This document shows, one piece after another, positions 6,987-25,728 of a DNA stretch of 64,000 bases. The DNA lies in assembly GCF_027257155.1 (NCBI RefSeq), contig NZ_JAPWDU010000002.1:124001-188000 (forward strand). The letters run 5' to 3'. Numbering within the stretch: position 1 is the stretch's first letter; each line of letters begins with the position of its first letter. The notes below the pieces were generated by a model that was given only the letters and a program-made list of their open reading frames with translations, was not told the origin of the DNA and ran no database searches. The position numbers and the translations under genes are program-made. The DNA is from Cerasicoccus sp. TK19100 (lineage in GTDB: Bacteria > Verrucomicrobiota > Verrucomicrobiia > Opitutales > Cerasicoccaceae).

Positions 6987-7376
6987 ATGTCAGATCCAAA
7001 GAAGCACCCCGGAAAATTTAACGCCACCGTGGCGGTCGCAATGGTGGCAGTCGTAGCCGCCATCATCATAGTTCTCGTATTGGTGTTGCAGGGCAACTCC
7101 AGATCACGCTTGGAGCCTTTTCCCACCGCCGAGTATTTGACCTCGCCGCAGAACTTTCTGGGCAACTCATACCGTATCGATGCACAGGTGGATTCTATGT
7201 TGTCCTACCGCCCGGGTCTGGGTCGCTTGCTCGTGATTAAAAGCGAAGGCAAGTCCATCCCGGTCTTTTTGGCCGACGGCCTTGCGGACAGCATTCACAC
7301 CGGCCAGCGCTACCACATGGATGTGAGCGTCGGGGATGGTGGCCTTCTCTACGTACAAACACTTCAGAAATACTAA
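6987..7376 (+). CDS. Small single-pass membrane-anchored protein of unknown function
   Basis: 129 residues. A lysine-containing N-terminus is followed by a strong hydrophobic helix at about residues 12-34 (VAVAMVAVVAAIIIVLVLVL). A ~90-residue presumably periplasmic domain follows, with YRIDAQVDSMLSYRPGLGRL and FLADGLADSI. The sequence looks like a small beta-barrel-type domain (OB-like), but I cannot assign a family. It lies between the sigma/anti-sigma pair and the large secreted repeat protein, all on the plus strand, so these may form one envelope-related unit. The next gene starts 37 bases after its stop. Confidence 0.7.
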   Translation: MSDPKKHPGKFNATVAVAMVAVVAAIIIVLVLVLQGNSRSRLEPFPTAEYLTSPQNFLGNSYRIDAQVDSMLSYRPGLGRLLVIKSEGKSIPVFLADGLADSIHTGQRYHMDVSVGDGGLLYVQTLQKY

Positions 7377-9559: not shown

Positions 9560-11325
<1,766 letters not shown>

Positions 11326-11474: not shown

Positions 11475-12116
11475 CTAATGTTTTGCGGAGTGAAAACTGA
11501 CCCTTCCGCACAAGAATTCTTTGGCGATGACATCGCCGAATGCGGTCTTGATCAAAATGGGCTTACCGGGATTCAAAAACGTCGCGCCTCTTTGCTGATT
11601 TTGGTAGTCATACCAAATCCGATCGAGGGTCTGCCGTGGAATACCGCCGAGCGATTTAATCCAGGCTGCTATGTCGTCAGTAATCAGCAATCGGTCGTAG
11701 GGATTTTGATTGGGTATGTCCCAGAAATCCTGAACAGATTTCGTGGACGCTTCGATGACGGGGTTCTGTGCAACCGGCATACGAAAGGAAAACGATTCCT
11801 CGCTGGAATTAAAGCAGAAGGCGTCCCCGGACGCCAAGTAGAGGCGAATTTCAAAACGCGCATTTTCAAGCCGCTCGGGAGCCATGCTCATGAGGTGCCT
11901 GGTTGATAAAAATTCAACATCAAGCACCTCACATTTGAAGGTGTTGATCAACGAGGAGAATTTTTCGGAAATGAATGCCGTATAGATTTTGGGTGGGTCC
12001 ATGCTGAGCACGACGTATTTGTCCAATTGCATTCGCAGGATTTGGCGTGGACTTTGATCCGAGGTCACCCGCAGGGAGTTCTGGAGATTGATAGCTTGGA
12101 GAGGGATGAATTGCAT
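11475..12116 (-). CDS. Array A, ~210-aa two-domain family, type 1 (unknown function)
   Basis: 213 residues, no known domain, no signal peptide. It aligns end to end with the 54183-54824 gene of array B, which has exactly the same length. Shared blocks include DQSPRQILR / DQTPRQILR, FEIRLYL / FEIRLHL, and the C-terminal PGKPILI followed by FLCGRVSFH / YLCGRVSFH. The N-terminal ~105 residues resemble the whole ~110-aa family (12989-13333). The C-terminal half has the W-x-D-(Y/F) motif (IWYDYQ) found in the other ~210-aa proteins of both arrays. The repeated architecture suggests recognition or structural paralogues, but no function can be assigned. A perfect hairpin with a T7 tract lies upstream of the start. 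Confidence 0.8.
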   Translation of the reverse strand: MQFIPLQAINLQNSLRVTSDQSPRQILRMQLDKYVVLSMDPPKIYTAFISEKFSSLINTFKCEVLDVEFLSTRHLMSMAPERLENARFEIRLYLASGDAFCFNSSEESFSFRMPVAQNPVIEASTKSVQDFWDIPNQNPYDRLLITDDIAAWIKSLGGIPRQTLDRIWYDYQNQQRGATFLNPGKPILIKTAFGDVIAKEFLCGRVSFHSAKH

Positions 12117-12173
12117 TGTTGGAATAGGTTGGGGATGAACTAGGGCTTGGCGTTCGGATGCCAGTGCGCGGAC

Positions 12174-12199
12174 ACAAAAAAACGAGCCGTCGCGGCTCG
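12174..12199 (-). terminator. Intrinsic terminator/attenuator-like hairpin before the type 1 gene
   Basis: The stem CGAGCCG/CGGCTCG with a 3-base loop is followed on the minus strand by seven T residues. It sits about 60 bases upstream of the 12116 start, so it is either the end of an upstream transcript or lies in the leader of this gene. The rest of the 12117-12442 gap shows only small hairpins (for example GAGGTGCATGGCCTC near 12321) and no gene. Confidence 0.7.
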
Positions 12200-12442
12200 C
12201 ATGGAATATGGGTTAATGTTGGGTGGGGTATCGTTGTGACTCAGTGACCAGCAGAGACATTAAATCGGCAAGCCCACTACCGGAATACTGTCAATTAATG
12301 TCACCGGTCGGAGCTCTCTCTGTGAGGTGCATGGCCTCACCGTTGCAAGCGTTAAGACAAGAAGAGTATAGGAACTATTCTGCTCGATCAAAACTCAGCG
12401 GAACGTATATCTACCTTTATGTGGGGGCGTAAGCATTTAGGT

Positions 12443-12751
12443 TCATGCTACGAGGCGATAAGAGGTGCTCGGCCCCCTTCCGCGTTTGATTACGGCGCCA
12501 TTGTCCAAATGAGGCTTCAAACGCCGTCGGACCGTGGAAGCATCAATCAGCATAGCATCGGCGATGCAGGCTGCCGTTGCTTCGCCATGGGTGGCGAGGA
12601 CGCTTAAGACGTCCTCCTCACCGTCTACGTTTTTTCGAACCGCCTTTCGTCTTGCTTTCACAGGCAAATTCGGTTGACTAGTAATCGCTGAAGCAATTCC
12701 TCGGGCCAGAATTTCTCCAATTTCTTTTAACTTTTCTTCACGCTGGTGCAT
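12443..12751 (-). CDS. Winged-helix DNA-binding protein
   Basis: The start at 12751 (MHQREEKLKEIGEILARG) is preferred; 18 further codons upstream are open but unlike the rest. The 102-residue protein has a basic linker (KARRKAVRK) and a C-terminal winged helix. That domain covers LSVLATHGEATAACIADAM, a recognition helix DASTVRRRLKPH and the wing NGAVIKRGRGPSTSYRL. This is like MarR/ArsR/GntR-style regulators of ~60 residues. It lies inside array A in the same direction as its neighbours and is a candidate local regulator. No counterpart is seen in array B. Confidence 0.7.
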   Translation of the reverse strand: MHQREEKLKEIGEILARGIASAITSQPNLPVKARRKAVRKNVDGEEDVLSVLATHGEATAACIADAMLIDASTVRRRLKPHLDNGAVIKRGRGPSTSYRLVA

Positions 12752-12988
12752 GAAAAGTGTAACTGAGAACTCTCGTTGAGAAAAGTAGTAAATTCGGACG
12801 GCCATCGCTAAGTATTAGAGAGGCTAATTCATGGGGGCCTTGAATTAATTCAACGAGCGAAGCTATAATAAGCCGAGATTAAGCAAAATTCGCCGAGTTA
12901 CCTCGAAACCGACCACTGAGGATTGCCCAGGAATCGGTTTCTTCGGCTGGGGGATACTGGGATACCAATGAAATATGCCTAATTTTGT

Positions 12989-13333
12989 TTAAGGTTCATC
13001 AAGGACGATGATGCCGTCGAATGGGTTGATCACGTAGATGTCGCCTCTTTTCGTATAAAGACGAACTTCGATCTCTTGGGTGCCGACTCTCGCGTGATCT
13101 CGGCACAATAGAGGACGTATCGTGCTCAGTTCGACATCAACAATGTCACTACGCAGATCGCCGATGACGCTGCTTAGATCAGGCGAATCGACGCCGAGCA
13201 TGACGTTTGTGGCATCGTAACTGACGACCAAGTATTGGTCGCCGCCTAGGCGGAACAGACGCCTGGGGGCTTTGGCGGAGCTAAGCAGCTTGGCCTGGGA
13301 AAAATCGATTTGGGCTGGAGTAAGTAACTTCAT
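12989..13333 (-). CDS. Array A, ~110-aa one-domain family (unknown function)
   Basis: 114 residues, beginning MKLLTPAQIDFSQAKLLSS. It aligns along its length with the array B gene at 53698-54033 (MKLLPPRFIDFSKATLISS). Common blocks are PRRLFRLGG / PRQLYRLGG, DIVDVELSTIRPLLCR / EIIDVELTTLRPVICR, and EVRLYTKRGDI / EVRLHLKRGDI. The same pattern (PR-x-h-x-R, then hDVE-x5-R, then E-h-RL-x4-GD) marks the N-terminal half of the ~210-aa proteins, so this is probably the same domain standing alone. An unusual structured leader lies upstream (13373-13410) in both copies. No catalytic residues are recognised. Confidence 0.8.
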   Translation of the reverse strand: MKLLTPAQIDFSQAKLLSSAKAPRRLFRLGGDQYLVVSYDATNVMLGVDSPDLSSVIGDLRSDIVDVELSTIRPLLCRDHARVGTQEIEVRLYTKRGDIYVINPFDGIIVLDEP

Positions 13334-13372
13334 GAATAACTAACTTTGGTGGTTTGAAAAGTACGTTGTTGA

Positions 13373-13410
13373 GGCGCCTTTTGACGACCTGTGGAAGGAG
13401 GTCGTGGCGC
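13373..13410 (-). promoter_or_regulatory. Conserved leader hairpin with anti-Shine-Dalgarno-like loop
   Basis: On the minus strand an outer GCGCC/GGCGC stem encloses an inner ACGACCT/AGGTCGT stem whose loop side contains CCTCCTTC, the sequence of the 16S rRNA 3' end. The same arrangement precedes the homologous array B gene (54078-54116), where the outer stem GGTGCC/GGTGCC is kept through G-U pairs. The plus strand reads AAGGAGGT, but no open frame follows it. A leader RNA element controlling the ~110-aa gene is inferred. Confidence 0.5.
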
Positions 13411-13422
13411 TATAAAGAGCAA

Positions 13423-13449
13423 AGCCGAGCCCCGATATGGGACTCGGCT
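13423..13449 (-). terminator. Hairpin between type 3 gene and ~110-aa gene
   Basis: AGCCGAG/CTCGGCT stem, 69 bases after the stop of the 13518-14147 gene. The T-tract on the minus strand is poor (TTTGCTCTTTAT). A closely similar GCCGAGCCC/GGGCTCGGC hairpin lies at the same place in array B (54130-54152), so the sequence and not just the fold is kept. Confidence 0.6.
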
Positions 13450-13517
13450 GAATTAATGAAATGCTGGCGGAATGTCGGCGTTGCGTTGGAGCAGACACTG
13501 ACGGTAATTCCCGCCGA

Positions 13518-14147
13518 CTATGGCAGGTCGAATAGCACCGTCCGATCAGGTTGAGGGGTGGCTAAAAAACAGGTAAACTCACCGTGGATCATGTATGGTG
13601 GTGCATCCGAAAAATCATTCTTGGGATTGCCGAGTGCCGTCTGGTAGTCGGTCCAGAAACGGAGAAGCATTTTGCTTTGATCGATTCCGCCGCTGTATTG
13701 CTCGATTGCGTTGACAAAGCGGTTGGACATTTTCATCGACTCTAGATATCCCTGATTTGTGATGCCCCAGATGTCTTCGGCCGTATACATCTTCTGATTC
13801 TTACATGAATCGCCGGTGAATGGATTAAGCAAAAAAATCTCGTCCCTCTCATTGAGCAAAACATTTTCGCGGTGCGATAGTCTGAGCCGCAATTCCCTGT
13901 GGGATGCGCCAGCGCCTTCAATGACCTGGAGTTTGACGAATTGAATTTCGACAACCTGAATGTTAGGCCGCAAGTCGAAATAATCACCGAGGATTTTTGA
14001 CTTGAATGCAAAGATGATGGCAGTGGAAATACTATCGTGGAGCGTGAATTGGTATGTGCGGATTCGCGTCAGGACAATCGGACAGTTGGGGGTCGTAAGG
14101 ACGGCGTGTGAATCCAGGAAGGATGGCTTGTATGGAATTTCTTTCAT
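13518..14147 (-). CDS. Array A, ~210-aa two-domain family, type 3 (unknown function)
   Basis: 209 residues beginning MKEIPYKPSFLDSHAVLT. It is strikingly similar to the array B gene at 55267-55923 (MKEIKYKPSIKDSNAVLT) over the full length. Shared blocks include LGDYFDL, KELRLxLSHxE, LNERDEIFIL, MSNRFA/V and LLRFWxDY, then GEFTxFLxTP. The N-terminal half fits the ~110-aa family pattern; the C-terminal half has the W-x-DY and GEF motifs. A hairpin with seven T residues ends only ~17 bases before the start codon. The function is unknown. The high similarity between copies suggests recent exchange or strong constraint compared with the other pairs. Confidence 0.8.
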   Translation of the reverse strand: MKEIPYKPSFLDSHAVLTTPNCPIVLTRIRTYQFTLHDSISTAIIFAFKSKILGDYFDLRPNIQVVEIQFVKLQVIEGAGASHRELRLRLSHRENVLLNERDEIFLLNPFTGDSCKNQKMYTAEDIWGITNQGYLESMKMSNRFVNAIEQYSGGIDQSKMLLRFWTDYQTALGNPKNDFSDAPPYMIHGEFTCFLATPQPDRTVLFDLP

Positions 14148-14163
14148 TGGTTTGTGTGTGGGT

Positions 14164-14197
14164 TAAAAAAATGGCGGAGCCATAGACTGGCTCCGCC
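14164..14197 (-). terminator. Strong hairpin plus T-tract immediately before a start codon
   Basis: A perfect 10-bp stem GGCGGAGCCA/TGGCTCCGCC with a 5-base loop is followed on the minus strand by ATTTTTTT. The start codon of the downstream gene follows about 17 bases later, so any promoter for that gene must overlap or precede the terminator. Confidence 0.8.
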
Positions 14198-14523
14198 GTG
14201 GATGTTCGCATTTAATTACTTGTTGGGGATGCTCATACGCCTTGGCGCTTAATGCTTGGTGCACATCTGAAGGATGCACGCATCAAGCTCTCATTCCATT
14301 CCCGTCATAATTCGAGTATACTGCTCCAGAAGCCGAGTTGGTTGGCCTTTCTGAAAAAAACAGCCTCCCAGAATGGCCCAGGATTCGCTTTAAGCGAACG
14401 ATGCAGGTAATGGTATACCCCTAAACGGAGCATTTTCTCGTAGATGGTTGGGTTTGCGATGGCACTGACTCGGGAGGATCAGGCACGACAGCTCTTCTCT
14501 GCGAAGAGAACTTGCTGCCTAGT
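14198..14523 (-). other. Intergenic stretch in array A, no gene seen
   Basis: No supported frame. A hairpin TTCTCT/AGAGAA lies at about 14491-14506, some 20 bases after the stop of the 14524-14811 gene, and probably ends that transcript. A short GC-poor stretch near 14400 (GGTATACCCC) shows nothing recognisable. Confidence 0.5.
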
Positions 14524-14811
14524 TTATCCTTTGCTGTCCGAAGTCCATATTAAAACCCATTGCCGACTATGAGGGGGAAGCCAACGGGTCATTATGGGCA
14601 TGGCGTTGAGAGCTGAGATCGATTCTCTGGTTAAGAATTCTCGTAATTGATAAGAACGAAAGGCTAGCAGGGCATCGTTCCTATTTGAGCAAGAATAAAA
14701 GCCAAAGGCCGAGTCGCCAAAATCGATGACGTAAGCGCTGCCGACTGGTGTGATTCCTTCTGCCTCATCGGGTTGAAACAACTTTAGCATATAAAATTTT
14801 GGAATTAGCAT
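14524..14811 (-). CDS. Array A, ~95-aa companion protein (unknown function)
   Basis: 95 residues starting MLIPKFYMLKLFQPDEAEG. It overlaps the upstream ~210-aa gene by 7 bases (start inside its stop region), so the two are translationally coupled. In array B the gene in the same place (54970-55263, 97 residues) starts 3 bases after its ~210-aa partner. The two small proteins are only weakly similar: a PEQAG/DEAEG-like block, a central aromatic/valine strand (SAYVIDF / DVWVLKI), and a C-terminal P-x2-RRHWV / PHSRQWVLI. Position, length and coupling make them likely counterparts. No motif indicates a function. Confidence 0.65.
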   Translation of the reverse strand: MLIPKFYMLKLFQPDEAEGITPVGSAYVIDFGDSAFGFYSCSNRNDALLAFRSYQLREFLTRESISALNAMPIMTRWLPPHSRQWVLIWTSDSKG

Positions 14812-15437
14812 AGATCAAATACAAATTGGTTGTTCACGATTTGACGGACGGAGAAATTAAACCACTCCCCAGAGATGATTACATTGTCCCCAAAAACTAG
14901 AGGAAAACGGCTCGCGTTAATCTTCGCCTCAAAATCACGCCACAGAATGTGCAAGATGTGTTCTTGTTGTTCACCGTCGGCTATTTCCACGATTTTCGTG
15001 ATCAATCGCTCCGTTAATGCCATGTTGAGATACGGACTTCGATTGGGTACAGCCAGGATTTCAGTGGCGAGGTACTCATGGCACTGTAAGGTTAGTGGTG
15101 AAATTGCCCAGATACTAATGAATATCTCATCACAGTGAGTCAGGGTGATGAATCTACGATCATCCAGGCTGAGGCGAAGCTCCCGCTTTGCATCAAATTC
15201 CCCTGCACCGACTGAAATTGTTTGGATGATTTCGACCTGGGGGATCTTCAGGTCCGGATATTTCTCCAGGAAATTTTCAAGCGCATGACTTTCAAAGACG
15301 AGAATGACCTCGTCCCGGAATGTCTTGCTAAGAACATATACGCTTCCGCGCACATGAGAAAGCGTGATGGGTGAAGTAGGTTCGGTGAGTGGTGTTCGGT
15401 TCTTGATCGAATTGGGTTTTAGACTAATTTCTTTCAT
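14805..15437 (-). CDS. Array A, ~210-aa two-domain family, type 4 (unknown function)
   Basis: 210 residues, beginning MKEISLKPNSIKNRTPLT, like the type 3 proteins. Family signs are PITLSHVRG, VFESHALENFLEKYPDL, KRELRLSLDDRRF and CDEIFIS in the N-terminal half. The C-terminal half has VPNRSPYLNM, ILWRDFEA, IISGEWFNF and VFDLC. It is more diverged than the two type 3 proteins are from each other and has no direct match in array B. It is coupled to the small gene downstream. A 12-bp perfect hairpin with six T residues lies just before the start. Unknown function; probably a duplicate of the type 3 gene. Confidence 0.78.
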   Translation of the reverse strand: MKEISLKPNSIKNRTPLTEPTSPITLSHVRGSVYVLSKTFRDEVILVFESHALENFLEKYPDLKIPQVEIIQTISVGAGEFDAKRELRLSLDDRRFITLTHCDEIFISIWAISPLTLQCHEYLATEILAVPNRSPYLNMALTERLITKIVEIADGEQQEHILHILWRDFEAKINASRFPLVFGDNVIISGEWFNFSVRQIVNNQFVFDLC

Positions 15438-15451
15438 AATGGATATTGGTT

Positions 15452-15486
15452 AAAAAATAAGCGGAGTCACATGGGTGACTCCGCTT
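15452..15486 (-). terminator. Perfect 12-bp hairpin between two array A genes
   Basis: AAGCGGAGTCAC/GTGACTCCGCTT with a 4-base loop, then ATTTTTT on the minus strand. It lies 26 bases after the stop of the 15512-16111 gene and ~15 bases before the next start codon, in a gap of only 74 bases. Confidence 0.85.
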
Positions 15487-15511
15487 TTCAGATTCGGGTT
15501 TTATGGTTTCG

Positions 15512-16111
15512 CTAGGCCGATTCGGCTTCCATGAAGGGAAGCAGTGGTTCATGGACCGTAGCACTTATCTGGGAAATCCAGAGGTCAACAATCGCGTAGA
15601 TCTGAGCCAGGTGTGGCATCAGAATGTAGGTGTCGACAAGCAAGGCCGCATTATACGCAGTCAACTGGGGCAGGTTCTCAGGATCGGTATGTAGGATTTC
15701 AGCAACCTTTTTAACTTGAGGTTTCGTTGCCGGGTAGTGATACCACTTTTTATTATCATGCTGGTAACGCTTGGGGAGCAGGCCAGAAATACTGGAAGCG
15801 GACGTCGAGGATTTCCGACTCCATTTTCCTTGAGCGTAGGCGAGCGTCAGGCACTCGCCGCATTCGTGATGGAGTATGTGCAGGGTGATTTTCCTCCCGA
15901 AGTCTTCCGCCGCAACGATATGCGGGTATGGCAGTTCGGGAAATTTCGCATTCCACCGGTAACGCTTGCCATCAGGCGTCGGCAGGTCCACGGCGAAGCT
16001 GGTGGTCTGGCTCGGAAGTGTGGTGTGATTATACAAGCCGTTGATGCGAGCCAGTATTTTCTTGGGCAGTCTTGGGCAGTTCTTGCCCGATAGGGTGTGT
16101 TTTTGGTTCAT
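15512..16111 (-). CDS. Array A, LTAYNA-motif family (~195 aa, unknown function)
   Basis: 199 residues. It matches the array B genes at 55998-56591 (closest) and 56860-57420. Blocks common to all three are LP-x-E/K-I-x-x-R near residue 18, the RWN tripeptide near residue 53, a PAT-x2-Q segment near residue 128, and the LTAYNA motif followed by an LMPH or MMKH helix. The first two also share HTTLPxQT, VDLP and the C-terminal EPLLPFMEAESA-type end. The PAT-x2-Q helix followed by LP-L-S/TAYNA-A resembles the small ATxKQ helical motif at the C-termini of some phage and helicase-like proteins; this is a weak resemblance. Cytoplasmic, function unknown. Confidence 0.78.
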   Translation of the reverse strand: MNQKHTLSGKNCPRLPKKILARINGLYNHTTLPSQTTSFAVDLPTPDGKRYRWNAKFPELPYPHIVAAEDFGRKITLHILHHECGECLTLAYAQGKWSRKSSTSASSISGLLPKRYQHDNKKWYHYPATKPQVKKVAEILHTDPENLPQLTAYNAALLVDTYILMPHLAQIYAIVDLWISQISATVHEPLLPFMEAESA

Positions 16112-16461: not shown

Positions 16462-17040
16462 ATGAAAAAAGAATCTACACCCATCAACGTTACCCAATTT
16501 TCTAAATCACTTGCCACTGAATATCTACCATGGACCCAGTGGCCCAAGCGCCTGCCTGATATTTTGCTGGATTATAAGGCAAACTATCCCATGGCCCATC
16601 TCCCCTCCTTGCAAATTGGCGAAGAACTCCACGAGCATTTATCGCGTTTCCTAAAATATGGAAAATGGATACCTCCTGAATATTACTTTCCATGCGTGAC
16701 AATCGCAGACGCCTTATTGGCAATCGGGTTTCGACTTGAAGATATCAACTCGGAACTCAGCGTTCAGTGCGGGCCTGTGGCGGGCCAAGTCGATGTGTGC
16801 GGCGTGTTAGGAAATGGCCGTCCTTGCGTAGTTGAGGTCAAAGCCACGCAGGGCAAATATGTTTTGCCGCCTCGAGCGTCTGAAGTTGTCCAAATGGCCA
16901 CTTATGCCTATGGCTTAGGCTATAGTGAGCCCGTATTGGCCTGCTTACGCGTGGCAGTGAGAAAATGCTGCGTCAGTGCATTTATCGTTGATGACGGAAG
17001 CGCCATGGTTACAGGTGCCCAGCAAGCGCTAGTCGCCTAG
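16462..17040 (+). CDS. RecB/Cas4-like PD-(D/E)XK nuclease of array A
   Basis: 192 residues. The nuclease core is clear: Asp111 in QVDVCG, Glu125 and Lys127 in VEVKAT, and the Gln144-x3-Tyr148 helix (QMATY) that marks RecB/Cas4-type exonucleases. The array B protein (57870-58421) has the same residues at the same spacing. There is no iron-sulfur cysteine cluster of the Cas4 kind, as only scattered cysteines are present. It is transcribed opposite to the rest of the array and its stop overlaps the convergent 361-aa gene by 4 bases. A DNA-cutting or trimming role is predicted from the active site; substrate and partners are unknown. Confidence 0.83.
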   Translation: MKKESTPINVTQFSKSLATEYLPWTQWPKRLPDILLDYKANYPMAHLPSLQIGEELHEHLSRFLKYGKWIPPEYYFPCVTIADALLAIGFRLEDINSELSVQCGPVAGQVDVCGVLGNGRPCVVEVKATQGKYVLPPRASEVVQMATYAYGLGYSEPVLACLRVAVRKCCVSAFIVDDGSAMVTGAQQALVA

Positions 17041-18122
17041 GATTGGCCAAGCTTTTTACGGATGCTTTGCAGTTTGGTGATTTCCTCATCCAACGTCTGA
17101 CGATGCTTAGAGAGCATCGTTTCCGGCACTGCATCAAAAAAGGAACTGAAGGCTGAAATACGGCTTATCGCCGAATCAATAAAGAGCTGCTTATCCGCTT
17201 CGCTTTTCTTGTTGAAACGCATCATCGCTTTATCGGATTCTAGCTTGAGCAGCGAAGTGAAATCAACGGTCGCTTGCGACTTCGGTGGTCTTGAATCCCT
17301 CAATGTAAGCGCATGATCAATGCATGCTGGGATGAGTCCGACGGTTCGTTCGTAGAACTTCCTGAGAGCTACTCGGTCTTTGATGGAAGGGACCTTCAAG
17401 CTTTTATACTGAGCCATGCATTGGCAGTATTGAAGAGTGAGGCGTTGCTCCAAGGATTTTAAAGCCGAGGCTCCTTTACCAAGCACCTGGCCTAAATCAT
17501 TCGTAAATTGCTTTTTGGCAGACCTGACGCTCACTTTGTCCATTAACGAAAATTGAATTTTCGCGTGGATTAGTGCAGCGCCCAGGTAAAGCGATACTTC
17601 AAGATATTGACGACTGCTTTGGCTATAAAGCGCCAGGCCTTGGGCGATTGATTGAATCATGCCAGTAATCTGTTCCATTGAAGTATTTTTGCTTAGCGCC
17701 GGCATGCCTGGTAGGATCTCGCTCCCCGTGGAAATGACCAATTCAATTTCGGCGGGCACTGCCGGAGGGTTGTCCTCATCGTCATCGGGCAATGTTTGAA
17801 CACCCTGTTCCACCGGAAGGGCCGCGATATCCACTTTCCACATTTCCTTGGCGAGGTATTTGATGGGTTCTTTATTCTGGTGATTTTCGGCAATTGATCG
17901 AATTTCCTTTCGCGCCTCTTCCTTGATGGTAAATACACCTTCGGTCTCGGTTTCGATCAAAGCCTTATGTATCTTTTTGAGTGGAGCAGTATAGTTTGAG
18001 ACAGCCGTATCTCCATTCACTTTCAAGTCATCGAGCGTCAACTTAGGGGCCCCCTTCGGCTTTTCAATGTACTGCTGGAGCTTCTTAACGAAGCCTTCAT
18101 TCATGTATTTGGGATCAGACAT
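17037..18122 (-). CDS. Unknown 361-aa helical protein next to the nuclease
   Basis: The protein is predicted mainly helical and charged, with an acidic DDDEDNPP linker near residue 112. A long region follows (residues ~150-300: SIAQGLALYSQSSRQYLE and GALKSLEQRLTLQYCQCMAQYK types). A basic C-terminus contains LDEEITKLQSIRKKLGQS. No signal peptide or known motif is present. The gene converges with the nuclease gene (4-base overlap) and lies just downstream of the RHH regulator on the same strand, with a 59-base gap, so it may be in that operon. No counterpart was recognised in array B, so it is specific to array A. Confidence 0.65.
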   Translation of the reverse strand: MSDPKYMNEGFVKKLQQYIEKPKGAPKLTLDDLKVNGDTAVSNYTAPLKKIHKALIETETEGVFTIKEEARKEIRSIAENHQNKEPIKYLAKEMWKVDIAALPVEQGVQTLPDDDEDNPPAVPAEIELVISTGSEILPGMPALSKNTSMEQITGMIQSIAQGLALYSQSSRQYLEVSLYLGAALIHAKIQFSLMDKVSVRSAKKQFTNDLGQVLGKGASALKSLEQRLTLQYCQCMAQYKSLKVPSIKDRVALRKFYERTVGLIPACIDHALTLRDSRPPKSQATVDFTSLLKLESDKAMMRFNKKSEADKQLFIDSAISRISAFSSFFDAVPETMLSKHRQTLDEEITKLQSIRKKLGQS

Positions 18123-18181: not shown

Positions 18182-18388
18182 TTATTCGGCCAGTTTTTCC
18201 AACTCGGTGGCGATAAAATTCGAGCGATTGCGATTTTGCGCGGTGGCAAGGACGTCAATGCGCAGGACAAGCTCAGCTGGCAGGCTGATCGAAATCTGAG
18301 TTTTTCCAGGGGCGCGTCTTATGGCTGCAGCCTTTTTCTTGTTGGCTGATTTCTTGGTCGGCTTCTTCGATGATTTCTTCCTGGGCAT
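18182..18388 (-). CDS. Ribbon-helix-helix DNA-binding protein
   Basis: 68 residues. The lysine-rich N-terminal tail (MPRKKSSKKPTKKSANKKK) is followed by the RHH core: a beta strand with TQISISLPAELV, then helix DVLATAQNRNRSNFIATEL. Proteins of this size (CopG/ParG/Arc class) bind operators as dimers and often control plasmid copy number, partition or toxin genes. A functionally similar RHH gene lies beside the nuclease gene in array B (57565-57810), although the two sequences are not close. Probably the regulator of this side of array A. Confidence 0.75.
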   Translation of the reverse strand: MPRKKSSKKPTKKSANKKKAAAIRRAPGKTQISISLPAELVLRIDVLATAQNRNRSNFIATELEKLAE

Positions 18389-18502: not shown

Positions 18503-19612
18503 CTATTTCTCTTCAGGATCGGCTACTTTTCGGACCTTCTTAATCCCGCCCTTTTTCGTTGGATTCTTGTTGGGGTTGGGAGTGGTCGTGAATCGTTTAC
18601 AGTGGTTATTCATCCAGCTGCGGTTGTATTTGCAGATGTCTTCGAAGATGACCGCAGTCAAATAAACCATTTCATCAGGGCTGCATTCGGGATCTTTGCC
18701 AACCAAGAAGAAGGCGCTACGGGCTAAATCTTTCGCTGCTTTCGCGAGTTGGCTCTTCCAGAGGGCATAGTGGGGCAATTCGTCGTCGGGGAGGGCCTTC
18801 TGGCGATCAGGTGGTCCAGGGAGCTGACAGAGGGACTGAGTCTGCTTCGATTTCGTGGAGTCAGGCCTTTTGTCGACGTCGGAAGACGTAGCTGGGCGCT
18901 GTTGTTCAGGACCAGCCTCTTTAGCAGCAGATGCTTGAGCCTTCTGATATTCAGATGAATGACCACCTTCGATATGTGTATATTTGTTTATGTTATTCTG
19001 ACTGGAGTTGGGCTCCTCAAATTCACCTGTGCTCTTTTTCGGCGTGGATACCGAGGTAGCTGTGGTCGTTGCTTCAGAGGCTTTGGCCTCCGATGGTAAG
19101 TCCTTTTGACCCGGCACAGGGGGCTTGCTGGTAGCAGAAGTCTTCTCTTGCTGAGACGTATTGGAGGCTACGGTCTGCTGGGACTTGGTTGGTTCAGTCG
19201 TCCCTGCTTCCACCCTCTGACTTTGCGCAGCGCGCTGTTGCTGATCATTGGACGACGCCTGGGAGTCAGGTGCGGCCTTGACTCCCGGCGAAGACTGGGG
19301 AACGCCACTGGGTCTTGACGTCTCGTGTTCAGTCCTCGCCGCGTCCGGTTTTCTTTCTGCAAGTCTCTGGGAAGCACCTTGCCCGGCCTGATTCTCCGTT
19401 GTTGGCTGAACCGGCTTTGACTGAGTGGCAGCCGTATGCTGAACGGCTTGAGCGGGAGTTGACGCCTGCCCACCTGCCGTTTGCCTGGTCACGTTGGCTA
19501 GCCGATCAGCGCCAGCTAAAGACTGTGCCTGTTGAGGCCCAGTCGCGTTATTGTCGTTTCGTTCGGCTGAAACCGAGTTCGAAGGTTTTTGAGTATCATT
19601 ATTATTGTCCAC
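18503..19612 (-). CDS. Low-complexity Q/S/T/A-rich protein with short C-terminal domain
   Basis: 369 residues. Residues 1-260 are a disordered region rich in Q, S, T, A, P, K (for example QQAQSLAGADRL, TAATQSKPVQPTTENQ). A ~90-residue ordered part follows (DDELPHYALWKSQLAKAAK, then FFLVGKDPECSPDEMVYL and ICKYNRSWMNNHCKRF) and a lysine-rich tail. I do not recognise the ordered domain. Such layouts occur in mobilisation or replication accessory proteins of mobile elements, but that is only analogy. It is transcribed divergently from the candidate structured RNA and relaxase-like gene. Confidence 0.6.
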   Translation of the reverse strand: MDNNNDTQKPSNSVSAERNDNNATGPQQAQSLAGADRLANVTRQTAGGQASTPAQAVQHTAATQSKPVQPTTENQAGQGASQRLAERKPDAARTEHETSRPSGVPQSSPGVKAAPDSQASSNDQQQRAAQSQRVEAGTTEPTKSQQTVASNTSQQEKTSATSKPPVPGQKDLPSEAKASEATTTATSVSTPKKSTGEFEEPNSSQNNINKYTHIEGGHSSEYQKAQASAAKEAGPEQQRPATSSDVDKRPDSTKSKQTQSLCQLPGPPDRQKALPDDELPHYALWKSQLAKAAKDLARSAFFLVGKDPECSPDEMVYLTAVIFEDICKYNRSWMNNHCKRFTTTPNPNKNPTKKGGIKKVRKVADPEEK

Positions 19613-19689
19613 AAGGATTCTAGTGGAACTATTTGAAGATAAAAAAAGAAAATAATGACTTTTTTTCTGAATTGATTGGCGGTGACTTC

Positions 19690-20269
19690 CGGCGCGGGAC
19701 TGTTGGACACGAACCGTCTGCTGGTTTGGACTGAGCCCGCGAATCGCCGGTCAGAACTTCGCGGCGTTATGTCGTCGCTGGGATGTCGCCAGATAGTGGT
19801 TTGGGCCCATGAGGTGGGTTCACTGTCAAGATACGTTCATCCAGCATGTAGCTTAAGGCTTGGGTAGTTGATGTTTACTTGAGGCAATTCTGGCGGCTTC
19901 TTGTCGCGTTCATGGTTGGCCGAACCATGGTGCTTATCAGCAACTGTGGCTCGTTACGAGGCACAGTCGTCTGTTTCTACCTTGTGGCGCTCCGAATTGC
20001 ACGGCGACTTCTACATGGTATAGGCAAGTAACATTGAAGTAACTTGCGAATTACTTGCTTCACGCGCTGAAGATTCATCGAGCGCACTTGTGCGCTACTT
20101 TCGATCTTCTTTATGGGCGCACTCGCAAAGCAGATCCACTACTTTGCTCATTCTTAAACGTCCGCACGAAGTAAGGACCGAGTGAAATTTGTAGATGTTC
20201 TCGGTTACATCCGAGAAACACAAATTTCTATACTCGCCTCCAATTTTCGACTAAAATTGGAGGATTTTT
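19690..20269 (+). ncRNA. Candidate large structured RNA (~580 nt) ending in an intrinsic terminator
   Basis: There is no credible gene here but an unusual density of strong hairpins. In order: CGCGGG/CCCGCG (19693-19741) enclosing AACC/GGTT; CATGGTT/AACCATG (19911-19929); ACTGTG-x-CTCG/CGAG-x-CACAGT with a 3-base loop (19943-19967); GAAGAT/ATCTTC enclosing AGCGCA/TGCGCT (20069-20109); GCAAAG/CTTTGC (20125-20147); GAAATTTG/CAAATTTC enclosing TTCTCGG/CCGAGAA (20184-20228). Last is an 11-bp terminator stem with T5. AAGTAA occurs twice directly and once inverted near 20025-20056. The 5' end is a guess and the strand is set by the terminator. The stretch could instead be an oriT/replication region. 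Confidence 0.5.
20237..20269 (+). terminator. Intrinsic terminator with no coding gene upstream
   Basis: A perfect 11-bp stem CCTCCAATTTT/AAAATTGGAGG with a 5-base loop is followed by ATTTTT. The nearest plus-strand gene upstream is over 3 kb away, so it most likely ends a non-coding transcript. Confidence 0.85.
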
Positions 20270-20582
20270 GATGGTTTCCTGACCATCGGCGCTGATCGGT
20301 TGATGGCGGATCAGCGACTGCTTGTAGCCAAAAGAAAAGCGCAGCCAAATAGATTCGTGTATCCAGGCACCAGAATTTCTAGCGCCGGATACACGGCCCG
20401 AGTGATCCCATCCACGGCGTCGTGCCAACACAGCGCCTTCCAGGCCTCGGGGACCTCGGGTATGCCATCGGGTTCTTACTGTTCAGGGAGCAGACAATAG
20501 TTCTAAACGGCGTCACCATAATAATGTGCGATTTTTGGAAAAACTAATGTCGCTATCGCCTTTTTTAACTATAGAATAAGAT
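20270..20582 (+). other. Hairpin-bearing region upstream of the relaxase-like gene (possible oriT)
   Basis: Two perfect inverted repeats occur: CGCTGATC/GATCAGCG with an 11-base loop (20290-20316) and CGTGTATCC/GGATACACG with a 22-base loop (20356-20395). Inverted repeats next to a relaxase gene are the usual look of a transfer origin, but no known nic sequence is recognised. No gene is seen. Confidence 0.35.
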
Positions 20583-22481
20583 ATGTCGCTTCCAGTTTTA
20601 GAACCAGTCGAGGTCGGAGAGGTCGCACACCTTTCGAAACATTTGATTCAAAAGTCGAAACGTCACATCCGTGACGCCGAATTCCTCGACCCCTGGTCGG
20701 AGCGGATGACGCTGCTGGATATGCCCACCATTAACGAATTCCGGGGCGGCGCTCGCGATCGTGATCACTTCCTGGAGCTCAATCAATTGGCCGTTGGCCG
20801 TCGAAACCGGAAATTCACGGCTTATCGGTTGACGGTTTCTCCGCCTGACATCGTCCAGGCTTTGCTCATGGTACTTCAACCAGATCAGCGAAATGAATTC
20901 ATTGGGCTTTGGCTCAAAATGGTTGATGAGTTTTTTGTCGAACGATGCGGAGACGTGCCAAGGCAGTTCGCTTTCCATACGGACAAGATCCGTCTTCATG
21001 TTGAGATACTCTTTTTGCGCGCTAACGAAAAAGGCAAGGCCTATCCAATGCCCAATGGGCTTGGGGACACCCGCCGGCGAGACCTAATCTCGCTTGCAGT
21101 TTATGCCGGGCTCTATTGCATGCCAATGGCGGAGGACTACCATACGCCTGAATTGGCCTATTGGGCCTACGAGTTGACCACGATCACCAAAGAGTTCTTG
21201 CGGCAGAAAGTGGATGGCTGGAGTGCAGAGTCGGAAGTTCGACTAATGAGCTTGGCGGCTGAGGCATTATCGATTCTTGAAGTGTGTACATCCGATCCAA
21301 CCTTGGACAATCGGCCCAAGTTTTGTGGGCAATTACGCAAAGCTTTCGGTCCCACATTCCCGGTGCCGGGATCGCATCCGAGTCAGCAATTGAAACAATT
21401 CTTAGACCGCCCGGCACCAGAGCTAATACCGGTCGCAGACGATATTCCTCGCTGGCTTGAAACTGGACGTCTTCGTCGACTCGAGGTTGAGGCGCGGCGG
21501 AAGGAGGATCAGGATATGTTCAAAGAGAGACCCAAAAGGCAAAGGACATACCTCAAGCAAGCGGCCTGCGAGAAGCGGGAGAAGTCAAAAGCAGGCCAAG
21601 CATCCCAGGTCGGTGGAGGGGCAACATCTGCTTCTGGAGAACAGAGCACTGATTTGGAGGATGTCATTGTTCCGCATGAGAAGTTGAGCACTTCGGAGGA
21701 AGTCTTGGCCCCAGTAGGGCCATTCATGCCACGCCAAAGCAAGCTGGATGAACACGCAAATAAAGATGAAGCCAATGAATATGCTTCAACCAACCTCGAA
21801 GCCTCCGGGCACGAGCCAGAATCTGAATTGGGTGAGGGTGACGCCGACGAGCCCGAAGCGTTCCCGCAGGAGGACCCAGATGAAGCCAAGACAGCCATCT
21901 CACCCGAGAAATTGATGAGCGTATCCGTTGCAGGCTTAGTTTTCGAACTCTACCGAGCTCCTCAGGTTAAAGTCTGGCGCGTTCACCACAGCGAAGAGCC
22001 AGACGAGAGCGAAATGTCCGACGAAGAATTGGAAGGATTTCAAGCCTGGATTCAACAAATGGATTTACGGATCGATGTGATGTTTGGAGAAGATGTCGAA
22101 AGACGCTTGCGCTACATGATAATGTGGTATCAAAAAGAGCGCAAGGCGATGGTAAAGCCAAGCCAGCCAGGTCGAGAACCGGAAAGTCCTGTCGAGCAAC
22201 CGGAAGAGTTGACGGGGGGTAATTCAACGCCGCCCACGCTTGGAATTCACGAACCCAAAACCACCGAGTCAAATGGGGATGACATACCCGATGATGAACG
22301 AAAGGCCTTTGCTGAATGGGTGGAGAAGCAGGATATGAGACGCTTTATTCAACTAACATGGGACTCAAGCATCGATCCGGTGCTGTTGCAAACAGAGATG
22401 TATAACGCGTATTTGAAGGAAAAACGTGAGCAGAGTAAATTGCCCGAATCCCCGGAGAAGCCAAAGTTCGGGTCGCCGTAA
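20583..22481 (+). CDS. Divergent relaxase-like (mobilisation) protein
   Basis: 632 residues. The N-terminal ~190 residues show the layout of MOB relaxases. A strand with FTAYRLTVSPP is followed by a helix and then HTDKIRLHVEILFLR. That matches relaxase motif III (H-x-D-x5-H-x-H) except that the third histidine is Glu. GKAYPMPNGLGD follows, as in relaxase active-site loops. After residue ~290 come charged, partly disordered stretches (RRKEDQDMFKERPKRQR) and two repeats of a D-E-x-(L/A)-F-x-x-W type segment (LEGFQAWIQQMDLRI and RKAFAEWVEKQDMRRFI). The family assignment rests on this short motif and is not secure. A divergent DNA-nicking enzyme for transfer or replication is inferred. Confidence 0.5.
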   Translation: MSLPVLEPVEVGEVAHLSKHLIQKSKRHIRDAEFLDPWSERMTLLDMPTINEFRGGARDRDHFLELNQLAVGRRNRKFTAYRLTVSPPDIVQALLMVLQPDQRNEFIGLWLKMVDEFFVERCGDVPRQFAFHTDKIRLHVEILFLRANEKGKAYPMPNGLGDTRRRDLISLAVYAGLYCMPMAEDYHTPELAYWAYELTTITKEFLRQKVDGWSAESEVRLMSLAAEALSILEVCTSDPTLDNRPKFCGQLRKAFGPTFPVPGSHPSQQLKQFLDRPAPELIPVADDIPRWLETGRLRRLEVEARRKEDQDMFKERPKRQRTYLKQAACEKREKSKAGQASQVGGGATSASGEQSTDLEDVIVPHEKLSTSEEVLAPVGPFMPRQSKLDEHANKDEANEYASTNLEASGHEPESELGEGDADEPEAFPQEDPDEAKTAISPEKLMSVSVAGLVFELYRAPQVKVWRVHHSEEPDESEMSDEELEGFQAWIQQMDLRIDVMFGEDVERRLRYMIMWYQKERKAMVKPSQPGREPESPVEQPEELTGGNSTPPTLGIHEPKTTESNGDDIPDDERKAFAEWVEKQDMRRFIQLTWDSSIDPVLLQTEMYNAYLKEKREQSKLPESPEKPKFGSP

Positions 22482-22568: not shown

Positions 22569-24314
22569 TCAGATTAAATATTCATCATTCATGTCAGGAT
22601 GCGGCTCAAAGCATGGGTATGAAACATAAATCAGGCCGTTTTCATCGCGGTATTTTGTGTGGCGGGCAAAGAGCTGATTTGCCATTTCGCATAGCGAGTC
22701 GGAGAGGTAGAATTGGTGTTTCCTCAGCCATTCAAGAATTGCGCACGCCCGGTCGTCGTCCAATGCGGAAAGACTTAACACCGCATTTACTTCCTTCTCT
22801 GCATTCTCAAGCTCGCTGCGCTTCAGTTGCGGCTTCAGGTTGGGTATCCATTCGGCGTTCCCATCTTCAGAAACTATGATTGCCATGCATTCATTTTTAT
22901 CGGCGATGTAGCGAACGCTTGAATTGTAACGGGCTCCTCGGCCCGGATCGCCCAATTGCGTAGCCATACCGTCTAAAATGACACCAATTGCATAGCAAAT
23001 GCCCGTGGGGTCGATCAATAGCGCCCCATCAATTGAAGTTAAACGACCAACCAGATCAGTTGTCAGCGATATCGGCTCAATCGGCGTGGCTTGGTTGGCC
23101 AAACGCTTTGCCTCGGATTCTGCGTCCTGAATAACAATCAATAGTGTTCCCTTTTTCTGGGCGTAGGCTGCTTGAGAAAGACCGACAAGCCGGTCTACAT
23201 CCTTAGTGGCAATGTCAGGGAAAATCCTGCGAATGTCATCAGCAAGCTTGATCAGGTCAATTGGTGTCAGGGGCAATTCAGGAGTACCATACCGGACTCG
23301 CATTAATGCGTGCCCATCGTGGCGCAGTTCCCATAAATAATGTCCATAAAACCGCACCTCAAAGAGATCTGCGCTGGTCTGATCATATTTTCCCCGAACG
23401 TGGCCAAAGCCCAATATAGCACGCCCGTCACAAATAAGACGTTCTGCGTGCCCAACCATTTCCAGCAACTTGCGAACTTGGCGATATGAAGTTAGCGGTA
23501 CGGGCTCCAAGAGGGTCAATGCAAACTCAATATTGGGATGGTTTCGATTGACGATAAGCATCCCTCCCGAAATTGCCGCCTTCTCATAGGTGAGTGAAGC
23601 GATGACATTACACGACCGGAAAAGGCCGTACAGGCCTTCAATTTTCTTTACCGCCCAAATGGGCGTGTCCATCAGTCTGGCCCCAGCCGCTCGCAAGGTC
23701 TCTGCTGGTGAGCGTTCACTAAAGATAGCAATGAACTCGGGCTCAGGTTTATACAGAGACCTACGACAATCCGTAAGAAATTCGGCGATTACCGCATCTA
23801 GAAATGACTTGGACGGACCGTAGCGTCTTTCCGCATGCACTTTGGCAAGGTTTAAAGCGCCATGTCCTTTCGGGTCATGAACATAGAGGACGACTCCAAC
23901 ATCATAATTCAGCACAGGCAATAAGCCTGAGAAATGGTAGGTTCCTGGGCGTTGATTTCTCCAGCCATTGAGAACGGATGATACCGCGTCGTGCATCGCA
24001 TGTGCCCGCACCCTTCGCTGGATGGAGTCATAGTGCGATTGAACTGTCGTGATGATATCCCGCTCAGGGGCCAAGGCATACCGGTGCTCAGCATCTTCTC
24101 TGACTCCGGAAAAGTCCTCGGGCTTAAATCCACAGTTTTCAGGTTCGAGGCAGACTGGGTGCGAATTCTCCTCCTCTTCGCGGCGTAATCCCAGCAAGAA
24201 AACCTCGGTTTCAAAGTCGGGACTGAGTTCTTTAAACAGATTAGCAGCGGCATTCTTGACTGAAATCTGAAAGGTACGTTGATAGCCCCACATGAATAAA
24301 CGTATAGTCTGCAT
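22569..24314 (-). CDS. DisA_N (DAC)-like domain protein, probable nucleotide sensor
   Basis: 581 residues. Near residues 430-500 the sequence follows the diadenylate cyclase (DisA_N) pattern: DGALLID (the DGA motif), a glycine-rich turn where the RHR motif is expected (GARYNSS instead of RHR), and IIVSEDG. Loss of the RHR motif argues against cyclase activity and fits the DAC-related sensor domains (DACNV type) found in predicted nucleotide-based conflict systems. The N-terminal ~400 residues have no recognised domain, apart from a WAVKKIEGLYGLF segment and strand-rich repeats. It is the last gene of a tight operon: 6 bases separate it from the DUF3800 gene. A defence role is inferred from this setting. 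Confidence 0.65.
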   Translation of the reverse strand: MQTIRLFMWGYQRTFQISVKNAAANLFKELSPDFETEVFLLGLRREEEENSHPVCLEPENCGFKPEDFSGVREDAEHRYALAPERDIITTVQSHYDSIQRRVRAHAMHDAVSSVLNGWRNQRPGTYHFSGLLPVLNYDVGVVLYVHDPKGHGALNLAKVHAERRYGPSKSFLDAVIAEFLTDCRRSLYKPEPEFIAIFSERSPAETLRAAGARLMDTPIWAVKKIEGLYGLFRSCNVIASLTYEKAAISGGMLIVNRNHPNIEFALTLLEPVPLTSYRQVRKLLEMVGHAERLICDGRAILGFGHVRGKYDQTSADLFEVRFYGHYLWELRHDGHALMRVRYGTPELPLTPIDLIKLADDIRRIFPDIATKDVDRLVGLSQAAYAQKKGTLLIVIQDAESEAKRLANQATPIEPISLTTDLVGRLTSIDGALLIDPTGICYAIGVILDGMATQLGDPGRGARYNSSVRYIADKNECMAIIVSEDGNAEWIPNLKPQLKRSELENAEKEVNAVLSLSALDDDRACAILEWLRKHQFYLSDSLCEMANQLFARHTKYRDENGLIYVSYPCFEPHPDMNDEYLI

Positions 24315-24320
24315 GTTTGA

Positions 24321-25448
24321 TTACTGCCTATCGGCATCCCCCTTCATGGTTTCCATCATTCGTGTGAACACCGCCACGCTGAATTGACCTGAAGACATCA
24401 TGGTTCCGGTTTTCGGAGTGCCACCGAGAGTCGGATGCATGCCCGTCAACATTTCACACACCCAGCCGCCGATCGCGGGATGCGCTGCACGAGTTAAGTA
24501 TTCATCAATGGACTCTCCCTTAAAGGCGCGTTTCGTATACTCACGCACTGCGGCAATCATGCAATCTGCCCCCCGGATCAGTGGTTGAATTTCTGAAGAG
24601 GCAAAAGTGAGGGATGTGATGTTTTCCAAGCCATAATTTATTCTCCTGCCGTCCTTAAATAGAATAGCCCCTGGCTTAGCATTTTTGTATAAACCAAAGA
24701 CTTTTTCAAAGCATTGGGAAAACTCCTTGATTGAGTCATGCACAAGGTCAATCGATACTGGAAAATGATTTTCAATGTCTTGGAACATTCCTACGAATAA
24801 GGGCATATTTAAACTGCTCCAACCGGTGATTTGTTCGTTGATCGCTGCGGATTCTGAGCCCACATCCTCTCCGATGGTGGATTCAATCCCTTCCAGGCGA
24901 CGTAAGCTTTCTTCGTCGTTAGTTTGCCTGAAGTATTCGATCCACGCCTGGTAGTTCGCCGTGATGGCACCGGCCTCGCCATCCTGATAGGCTTTTGCGA
25001 ATTCCTCGATTAGCTGGTCTGGACCTTCATAAAATTTCTGCGCCCAGCTTTGGCGTGCGTCGGGATCAAGCAGCTCAGAATTTTCAATGTTGGCGTTATA
25101 GGCAGGGTCGTAGAATGATTCGACGATCTTTGCACATACGGCAAAACGCTTTTCGGCTAAGTAAAAATAGGGAATGGCTTTCTGCGCCATGAGTTGTATC
25201 AAGGATGCTATGTATTGGCGGCCTCTTTGAGATTTGATGAGTTGAGCTCCCTTCACTTCCTTGCCGGAATCAAAGCCATTATCACGCTCAAAATCCTCGA
25301 TCGCCCTCATTAAGGATGGGCGATCTTCGTGTTTTACGAGCCACCCGCCATAAACGAAAATGGGTTGTTGCGGATCGATGAAATTTCTTCCGCTATTTCC
25401 TGTTTCGTCGCAGAAGAACGAATGGTCTGATCGGTTTATGGCATCCAT
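24321..25448 (-). CDS. DUF3800-family protein (RNase H-like fold, putative nuclease)
   Basis: 375 residues from the ATG at 25448; a longer frame exists upstream but overlaps the preceding gene. The N-terminus has the DUF3800 hallmark DETGNSG followed by VYGGWLV. Further acidic residues of the RNase H-like core are in VSIDLVHDS and the ADCMIAAVREY helix. DUF3800 proteins are common in defence islands and beside toxins, and are predicted to cut nucleic acid; activity here is inferred. The start is joined to the preceding gene by TAG-A-ATG (stop 25450-25452, start 25448), so the two are translationally coupled. The DAC-like gene follows directly. Confidence 0.8.
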   Translation of the reverse strand: MDAINRSDHSFFCDETGNSGRNFIDPQQPIFVYGGWLVKHEDRPSLMRAIEDFERDNGFDSGKEVKGAQLIKSQRGRQYIASLIQLMAQKAIPYFYLAEKRFAVCAKIVESFYDPAYNANIENSELLDPDARQSWAQKFYEGPDQLIEEFAKAYQDGEAGAITANYQAWIEYFRQTNDEESLRRLEGIESTIGEDVGSESAAINEQITGWSSLNMPLFVGMFQDIENHFPVSIDLVHDSIKEFSQCFEKVFGLYKNAKPGAILFKDGRRINYGLENITSLTFASSEIQPLIRGADCMIAAVREYTKRAFKGESIDEYLTRAAHPAIGGWVCEMLTGMHPTLGGTPKTGTMMSSGQFSVAVFTRMMETMKGDADRQ

Positions 25449-25449
25449 T

Positions 25450-25728
25450 CTATCGGGTAGAATCTGAATAATTGTGTATGAGACCCTCCGCACGATCAAC
25501 GTAAGTCGTAATCGTGGTTTCCCGCTCATTGGGACTAATCGGCCAGATCGGTTCACTGGCATGCTGATCAATCCTGGAACGAACTTCCTCTAAATCGATG
25601 GCCAATCCAAGTGCGTCGTAAACCTCGCCTATGGCATAGTCGAAGCGATCAAGGTCGATGGGGTGGAATGTGTTCCAAGTCGGTGTTTTGGCCCATTCTT
25701 CAATGGGGAAGTAGGGATCTGAGTCCAT
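25450..25728 (-). CDS. Small first gene of the DUF3800/DAC-like operon (unknown)
   Basis: 92 residues, acidic and aromatic (MDSDPYFPIEEWAKTPTW, FDYAIGEVYDALGL, ending YSDSTR). No known domain. Its stop is one base before the DUF3800 start, so it is part of the operon and may be a partner or an inhibitor of the putative nuclease. The same gap pattern is seen in toxin/antitoxin and small-regulator operons, but nothing in the sequence shows which it is. Confidence 0.65.
   Translation of the reverse strand: MDSDPYFPIEEWAKTPTWNTFHPIDLDRFDYAIGEVYDALGLAIDLEEVRSRIDQHASEPIWPISPNERETTITTYVDRAEGLIHNYSDSTR

Follow-up and report, generated by a model that had tools for sequence, protein, structure and literature searches.

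A hairpin array beside a candidate HUH relaxase-like gene in a Cerasicoccus genomic island, with a possible role in DNA transfer or replication

We analysed a 64,000-nucleotide stretch of the Cerasicoccus sp. TK19100 genome (contig NZ_JAPWDU010000002.1, positions 124,001 to 188,000; hereafter the window) and found that it contains a real, non-random array of hairpins at 19861-20460. Intrastrand pairing there exceeds that of shuffled sequence on both strands, as judged by a 120-nt scan, regional folds and stem counts. The array lies in an island at a tRNA-Ser gene, immediately upstream of a gene for a candidate HUH relaxase-like protein. We tentatively read it as a cis-acting DNA-processing region of an integrative mobilizable island, either oriT-like or a combined origin of transfer and single-strand replication, and rate this reading at somewhat less than an even chance. 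The two readings that compete with it most closely are a regulatory region between divergent genes and a structured RNA that is transcribed. The latter had been put forward in an earlier sequence-only reading of the same stretch, in which the array was misread in extent and probably also in nature.

Composition, extent and strand symmetry of the array

The strong hairpins that had been named from the letters, two of them compound, are all present and exceed chance expectation. Eight perfect stems of 6 bp or longer occur in 19690-20269, against 1.66 +/- 1.23 in dinucleotide-preserving shuffles, none of which (0/300) attained this number, and stems of at least 7 bp number 5 against a shuffle mean of 0.49. 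Folding of the whole region gave z scores of -5.1 for the plus strand and -5.2 for the minus strand. Folding was also compared among 20 ORF-free gaps, each 400 bp or longer, taken from the window plus sixteen samples of 20 kb each from this genome (384 kb in all); the gap holding the array ranked second. The absence of a coding gene across the region also held, as no long ORF runs through it.

Among its hairpins are CATGGTT-GGCCG-AACCATG (19911-19929) and ACTGTG(G)CTCG-TTA-CGAG(G)CACAGT (19943-19967). These are followed at 20024-20058 by the overlapping inverted repeats GCAAGTAA, AAGTAACTT and TTACTTGC, from which mutually exclusive hairpins could form. The first compound hairpin, at about 20069-20109, has GAAGAT..ATCTTC enclosing AGCGCA-CTTG-TGCGCT, and a simple hairpin, GCAAAG..CTTTGC, occupies 20125-20147. 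In the second compound hairpin (20184-20228), GAAATTTG..CAAATTTC (GAAATTTGT..ACAAATTTC) surrounds TTCTCGG-TTACAT-CCGAGAA, and an alternative inner pairing, GATGT..ACATC, is possible. A terminator-like plus-strand hairpin of 11 bp, followed by ATTTTT (T5), lies at 20237-20268. Beyond it are two further hairpins, CGCTGATC..GATCAGCG at 20290-20316 and CGTGTATCC..GGATACACG at 20356-20395.

The extent of the signal differs from that first proposed. The sequence-only reading described an object of about 580 nt starting at 19690; its first 200 nt or so fold no better than shuffles, the regional fold, scan and stem counts agreeing on this for 19660-19860. In regional folds with the base-pair span capped at 100 nt, 19660-20000 did not depart from chance (z -1.4 on the plus strand, -0.4 on the minus strand), whereas 20000-20275 gave -4.0 on the plus strand and -6.8 on the minus strand. 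In the 120-nt scan both strands carried the signal from about 19861 to about 20460. An 11-bp hairpin with T5 does exist where a terminator had been said to close the structure, but strong hairpins continue beyond it, and 20270-20470 scored about -4 on both strands. Nor does strand favour a plus-strand RNA: in 20000-20275 the minus strand matches or exceeds the plus strand in significance, and G-U pairs show no plus-strand enrichment there (5 plus, 7 minus). Pairing on both strands, together with structure past the terminator, fits DNA palindromes and is not expected of an RNA ending at 20268; the pattern is compatible with transcription too. Series of hairpins seen in raw sequence need checks of strand symmetry and extent before they are labelled giant RNAs.

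The downstream 632-aa protein and its candidate HUH family

Directly downstream of the array, on the plus strand, lies a gene for a 632-aa orphan protein (20583-22481). No homologue was found in 388 genomes of the phylum, viral contigs, plasmids or genome contigs, no match in protein-family libraries, and nothing relevant in PDB sequence searches. AlphaFold2, run on the N-terminus without an alignment, returned no usable model (pLDDT 37).

A link to HUH proteins came by way of the neighbouring genes. A 361-aa protein encoded on the minus strand at 17037-18122 has rare relatives, a profile search locating them in two other genomes only, and both loci contain strongly structured gaps (L019 and L020). 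In L019, which belongs to genome G004 (Verrucomicrobiia MAG record JAUIHT010000008.1), the structured gap (z -9.6) adjoins a gene for a 508-aa protein. The family of this protein has an invariant H..LHxH motif and matches Pfam Relaxase (1e-4) and, also weakly, NCBIfam MobV (0.0036), on which basis we regard it as HUH relaxase-like. In L020 it is downstream of the 361-aa relative that the structured gap is found, and the 19-kb locus yielded no HUH gene, so this locus was not counted as support. Direct comparison of the three structured gaps, in the window, L019 and L020, detected no sequence similarity. We also observed that 7000-8280 of L020 consists of AT-rich repeats and then a hairpin-rich gap, in which TCACCCACTTGTCG recurs as three near-repeats and which adjoins the 361-aa relative.

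We compared a profile of the HUH family with about 170 real proteins from the compared loci and 150 shuffled sequences. The N-terminal part of the 632-aa protein was the top match, scoring 32.0 against 25.5 for the best other real protein and 23.1 for the best shuffle. A larger profile again gave 32.0 with the same alignment (best shuffle 22.7). In this alignment FAFHTDKIRLHVEILF (HTDKIRLHVE) falls in register at the family's H-x-D-x5-H motif, with Glu replacing the second His of the HxH pair (HxE). Family member L067 reads SCHTDTSDLHVDLLFSR where the window protein has AFHTDKIRLHVEILFLR, and L067 also carries SCHTDTSDLHVDLLF. HHalign gave a probability of 11-13%, with E about 0.002-0.003 for one comparison. 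Together these profile and local alignments provide a weak but specific indication that the 632-aa protein is HUH relaxase-like.

Structured sequence also tends to precede HUH genes elsewhere. Taking the lowest z of four windows on each side of the gene, upstream sequence was more structured than downstream sequence in 13 of 18 HUH loci (Wilcoxon one-sided P 0.003). With the window and one near-duplicate set aside, the same held for 11 of 16 (P 0.01), a difference that is inflated if, as is probable, the upstream windows are intergenic more often than the downstream ones. This is a tendency and no rule, and a strong upstream array is absent from many of the HUH relatives. Clear arrays, with long inverted repeats and several hairpins at most about 300 nt from the start codon, occur in L019, L031, L072, L073 and L077. 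No convincing k-mers are common to the regions upstream of the HUH genes, and no conserved nic motif was recognised.

Some of these loci have features of their own. In L031, the stretch before the HUH gene at about 7195-7260 has the same layout, reading CGCCGAAGCCCGCCGG..CCGGCGGGCTTCGGCG TTTTAACCCC..ATG. L077 and L073, which are 93% identical, hold the long inverted repeat GGCAAGGGCAAAAATGGATACT..AGTATCCATTTTTGTTCTTGCC within the 300 nt before the HUH start codon, and in L072 a CCGGA.G.CAAG stretch that resembles L077 and L073 is followed by a long inverted repeat. The upstream repeats of these three loci could be oriTs.

Island setting and a possible role in DNA processing

The gene for a large serine recombinase (9589-11325, minus strand) reaches into the tRNA-Ser gene at 9560-9649. 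A related serine integrase occupies the same tRNA-Ser in congener G002, and the gene to the left of the tRNA is vertically conserved within the genus; on these grounds we consider the site an integration hotspot. A search for the right end of the island and an attachment repeat found neither, and no direct repeat of the tRNA end was detected. Between the recombinase and the array, a small minus-strand gene (18182-18388) encodes a ribbon-helix-helix (RHH; CopG-like) protein that scores above the cutoff for Pfam RHH_1 and is possibly a relaxosome accessory factor. It is followed by a gene for a 369-aa low-complexity protein of no matched family (18503-19612, minus strand), divergently transcribed from the 632-aa gene.

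Palindromes standing directly before a relaxase-like gene make a start of DNA transfer or replication more likely than a giant RNA. A long oriT or replication region had been the second option of the sequence-only reading, and the tRNA-Ser island, the serine integrase and the HUH-like gene downstream fit it better than they do an RNA; no nic-site consensus was identified. Inverted repeats upstream of a relaxase gene are a feature of oriTs and are seen here if the HUH-like candidate is taken as that gene, and the pairs of the array are rich in Watson-Crick pairing. On this model, supercoiled or single-stranded DNA would let the unique palindromes extrude as hairpins, one of which would be the binding and nicking site of the HUH relaxase-like protein, perhaps with the RHH protein assisting. 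Transfer or single-strand replication would ensue, and the serine integrase would excise the element and insert it at tRNA-Ser. A further function of the terminator-like hairpin at 20237-20268 may be to shield the relaxase gene from read-through.

The closest parallel is the MOBV oriT of pMV158 (relaxase MobM), in which overlapping, mutually exclusive hairpins lie upstream of the relaxase gene (PMC5863519). The window likewise has inverted repeats capable of alternative hairpins 5' of the gene for an adjoining HUH-type protein. The pMV158 oriT, however, is compact and built of three overlapping repeats, whereas in the window 600 bp hold nine or more separate hairpins, the HUH-like protein has HxE in place of HxH, and no nic site was recognised. 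As for the RHH protein, PcfF offers a precedent, described as an accessory factor of the RHH type by which a relaxase is recruited at oriT (PMC6514445). A site-specific recombinase at a tRNA gene, a relaxase-like gene and a possible accessory RHH protein are shared with integrative mobilizable elements (IMEs; PMC5704250). The window differs from those in having a serine integrase, where tyrosine integrases are listed at tRNA sites (PMC5704250), and in that its right end was not located and its mobilization is a prediction.

Should the oriT-like reading be right, the window would hold a Verrucomicrobiota mobilization module and its likely transfer origin, together with a member of a relaxase-like family that goes almost unnoticed by Pfam and NCBIfam. 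A much broader proposal, to which we give little credence at present, is that Verrucomicrobiota islands share a widespread and fast-diverging transfer or replication origin made of long arrays of unique hairpins instead of one nic hairpin, served by a divergent HUH family (HxH, HxD, HxE) and conserved in array shape over sequence.

Other parts of the island are also of note. A run of small orphan genes, some mutually similar, fills 11475-16111 on the minus strand, with protein starts such as MKEIPYKPSFL.., MKEISLKPNSI.., MKLLTPAQIDF.. and MQFIPLQAINL... At least two of them are preceded, 15-45 nt before the ATG, by a strong hairpin and a T-run ending in AACC (for example 14195-14150 and 15485-15435); this leaves little room for a promoter, which suggests control by attenuation or read-through. 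To the right of the 632-aa gene, the minus strand encodes a diadenylate-cyclase-like protein, which has DACNG and DACNH sensor domains, beside a DUF3800 protein (22569-24314 and 24321-25571). The pair resembles an antiphage signalling module; PADLOC returned no match for it and no defence family worth noting.

Regulatory, RNA and repeat-based alternatives

The array could instead be a regulatory intergenic region, supplying terminators, operators and leaders to the divergent 369-aa and 632-aa genes and having no part in transfer. We hold this to be unlikely, if still deserving of weight. Its location between divergently transcribed genes and its one terminator-like hairpin are in keeping with such a role, palindromes can serve as operators for RHH or HTH proteins of the island, and strong terminators close before start codons recur across the island. 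An array of nine or more unique stems within 600 bp nevertheless exceeds ordinary regulatory needs, and the hairpin sequences differ from one another, which further argues against this explanation.

We consider it improbable that the region encodes a large structured non-coding RNA, a plus-strand transcript that would start near 19.68 kb, stop at the 20268 terminator and form a new ornate class in a mobile element. The sequence-only reading had compared it to GOLLD and ROOL, which are found in phages and prophages close to tRNA islands (PMC12286853), and the likeness lies in a long structured non-coding stretch of a mobile element near a tRNA. The plus-strand z of the whole region, the compound hairpins, the plus-strand terminator and the lack of an ORF are what such an RNA would lead one to expect. 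So is L019, which shares the 361-aa gene and whose gap, 416 nt long and divergent to the 361-aa operon, has a similar layout, ending with a hairpin and then a T-rich stretch. The comparison with GOLLD and ROOL breaks down over strand bias, over a 5' third folding at chance and over pairing that goes on past the terminator. It also finds no backing in homology searches: cmscan at the Rfam gathering threshold matched the tRNA alone in the window, and at E<=5 nothing matched in 19500-20700. DNA searches of phages, plasmids, the genome itself and nine family members returned the query or chance matches only. A covariance model built from the single sequence of 20020-20236 matched itself alone in 530 kb of comparison loci and 54 related genomes, so that neither approach yielded a homologue to supply covariation. 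No sigma-70-like promoter was detected in 19400-20700.

Least probable of all is that the array consists of palindromic repeats of a dispersed kind or of a piece of a decayed mobile element, rich in inverted repeats by chance; such repeats probably occur in this genome, where the L040 gap scores high through GC palindromes, but a DNA search of the 5.07-Mb genome turned up no further copy of the window hairpins, and the array is not GC-rich. L040 was the gap that ranked first of the 20 by folding, and it owes its top score to being packed with GC palindromes such as CACAGGCGTCCCGCCTGTG. These palindromes, of the types GTAGCACAGGCGTCCCGCCTGTG and GGAGCGGGGACGCTCCGCGCTACC, lie at 180-400 and 2300-2710 of that locus and are probably dispersed repeats.
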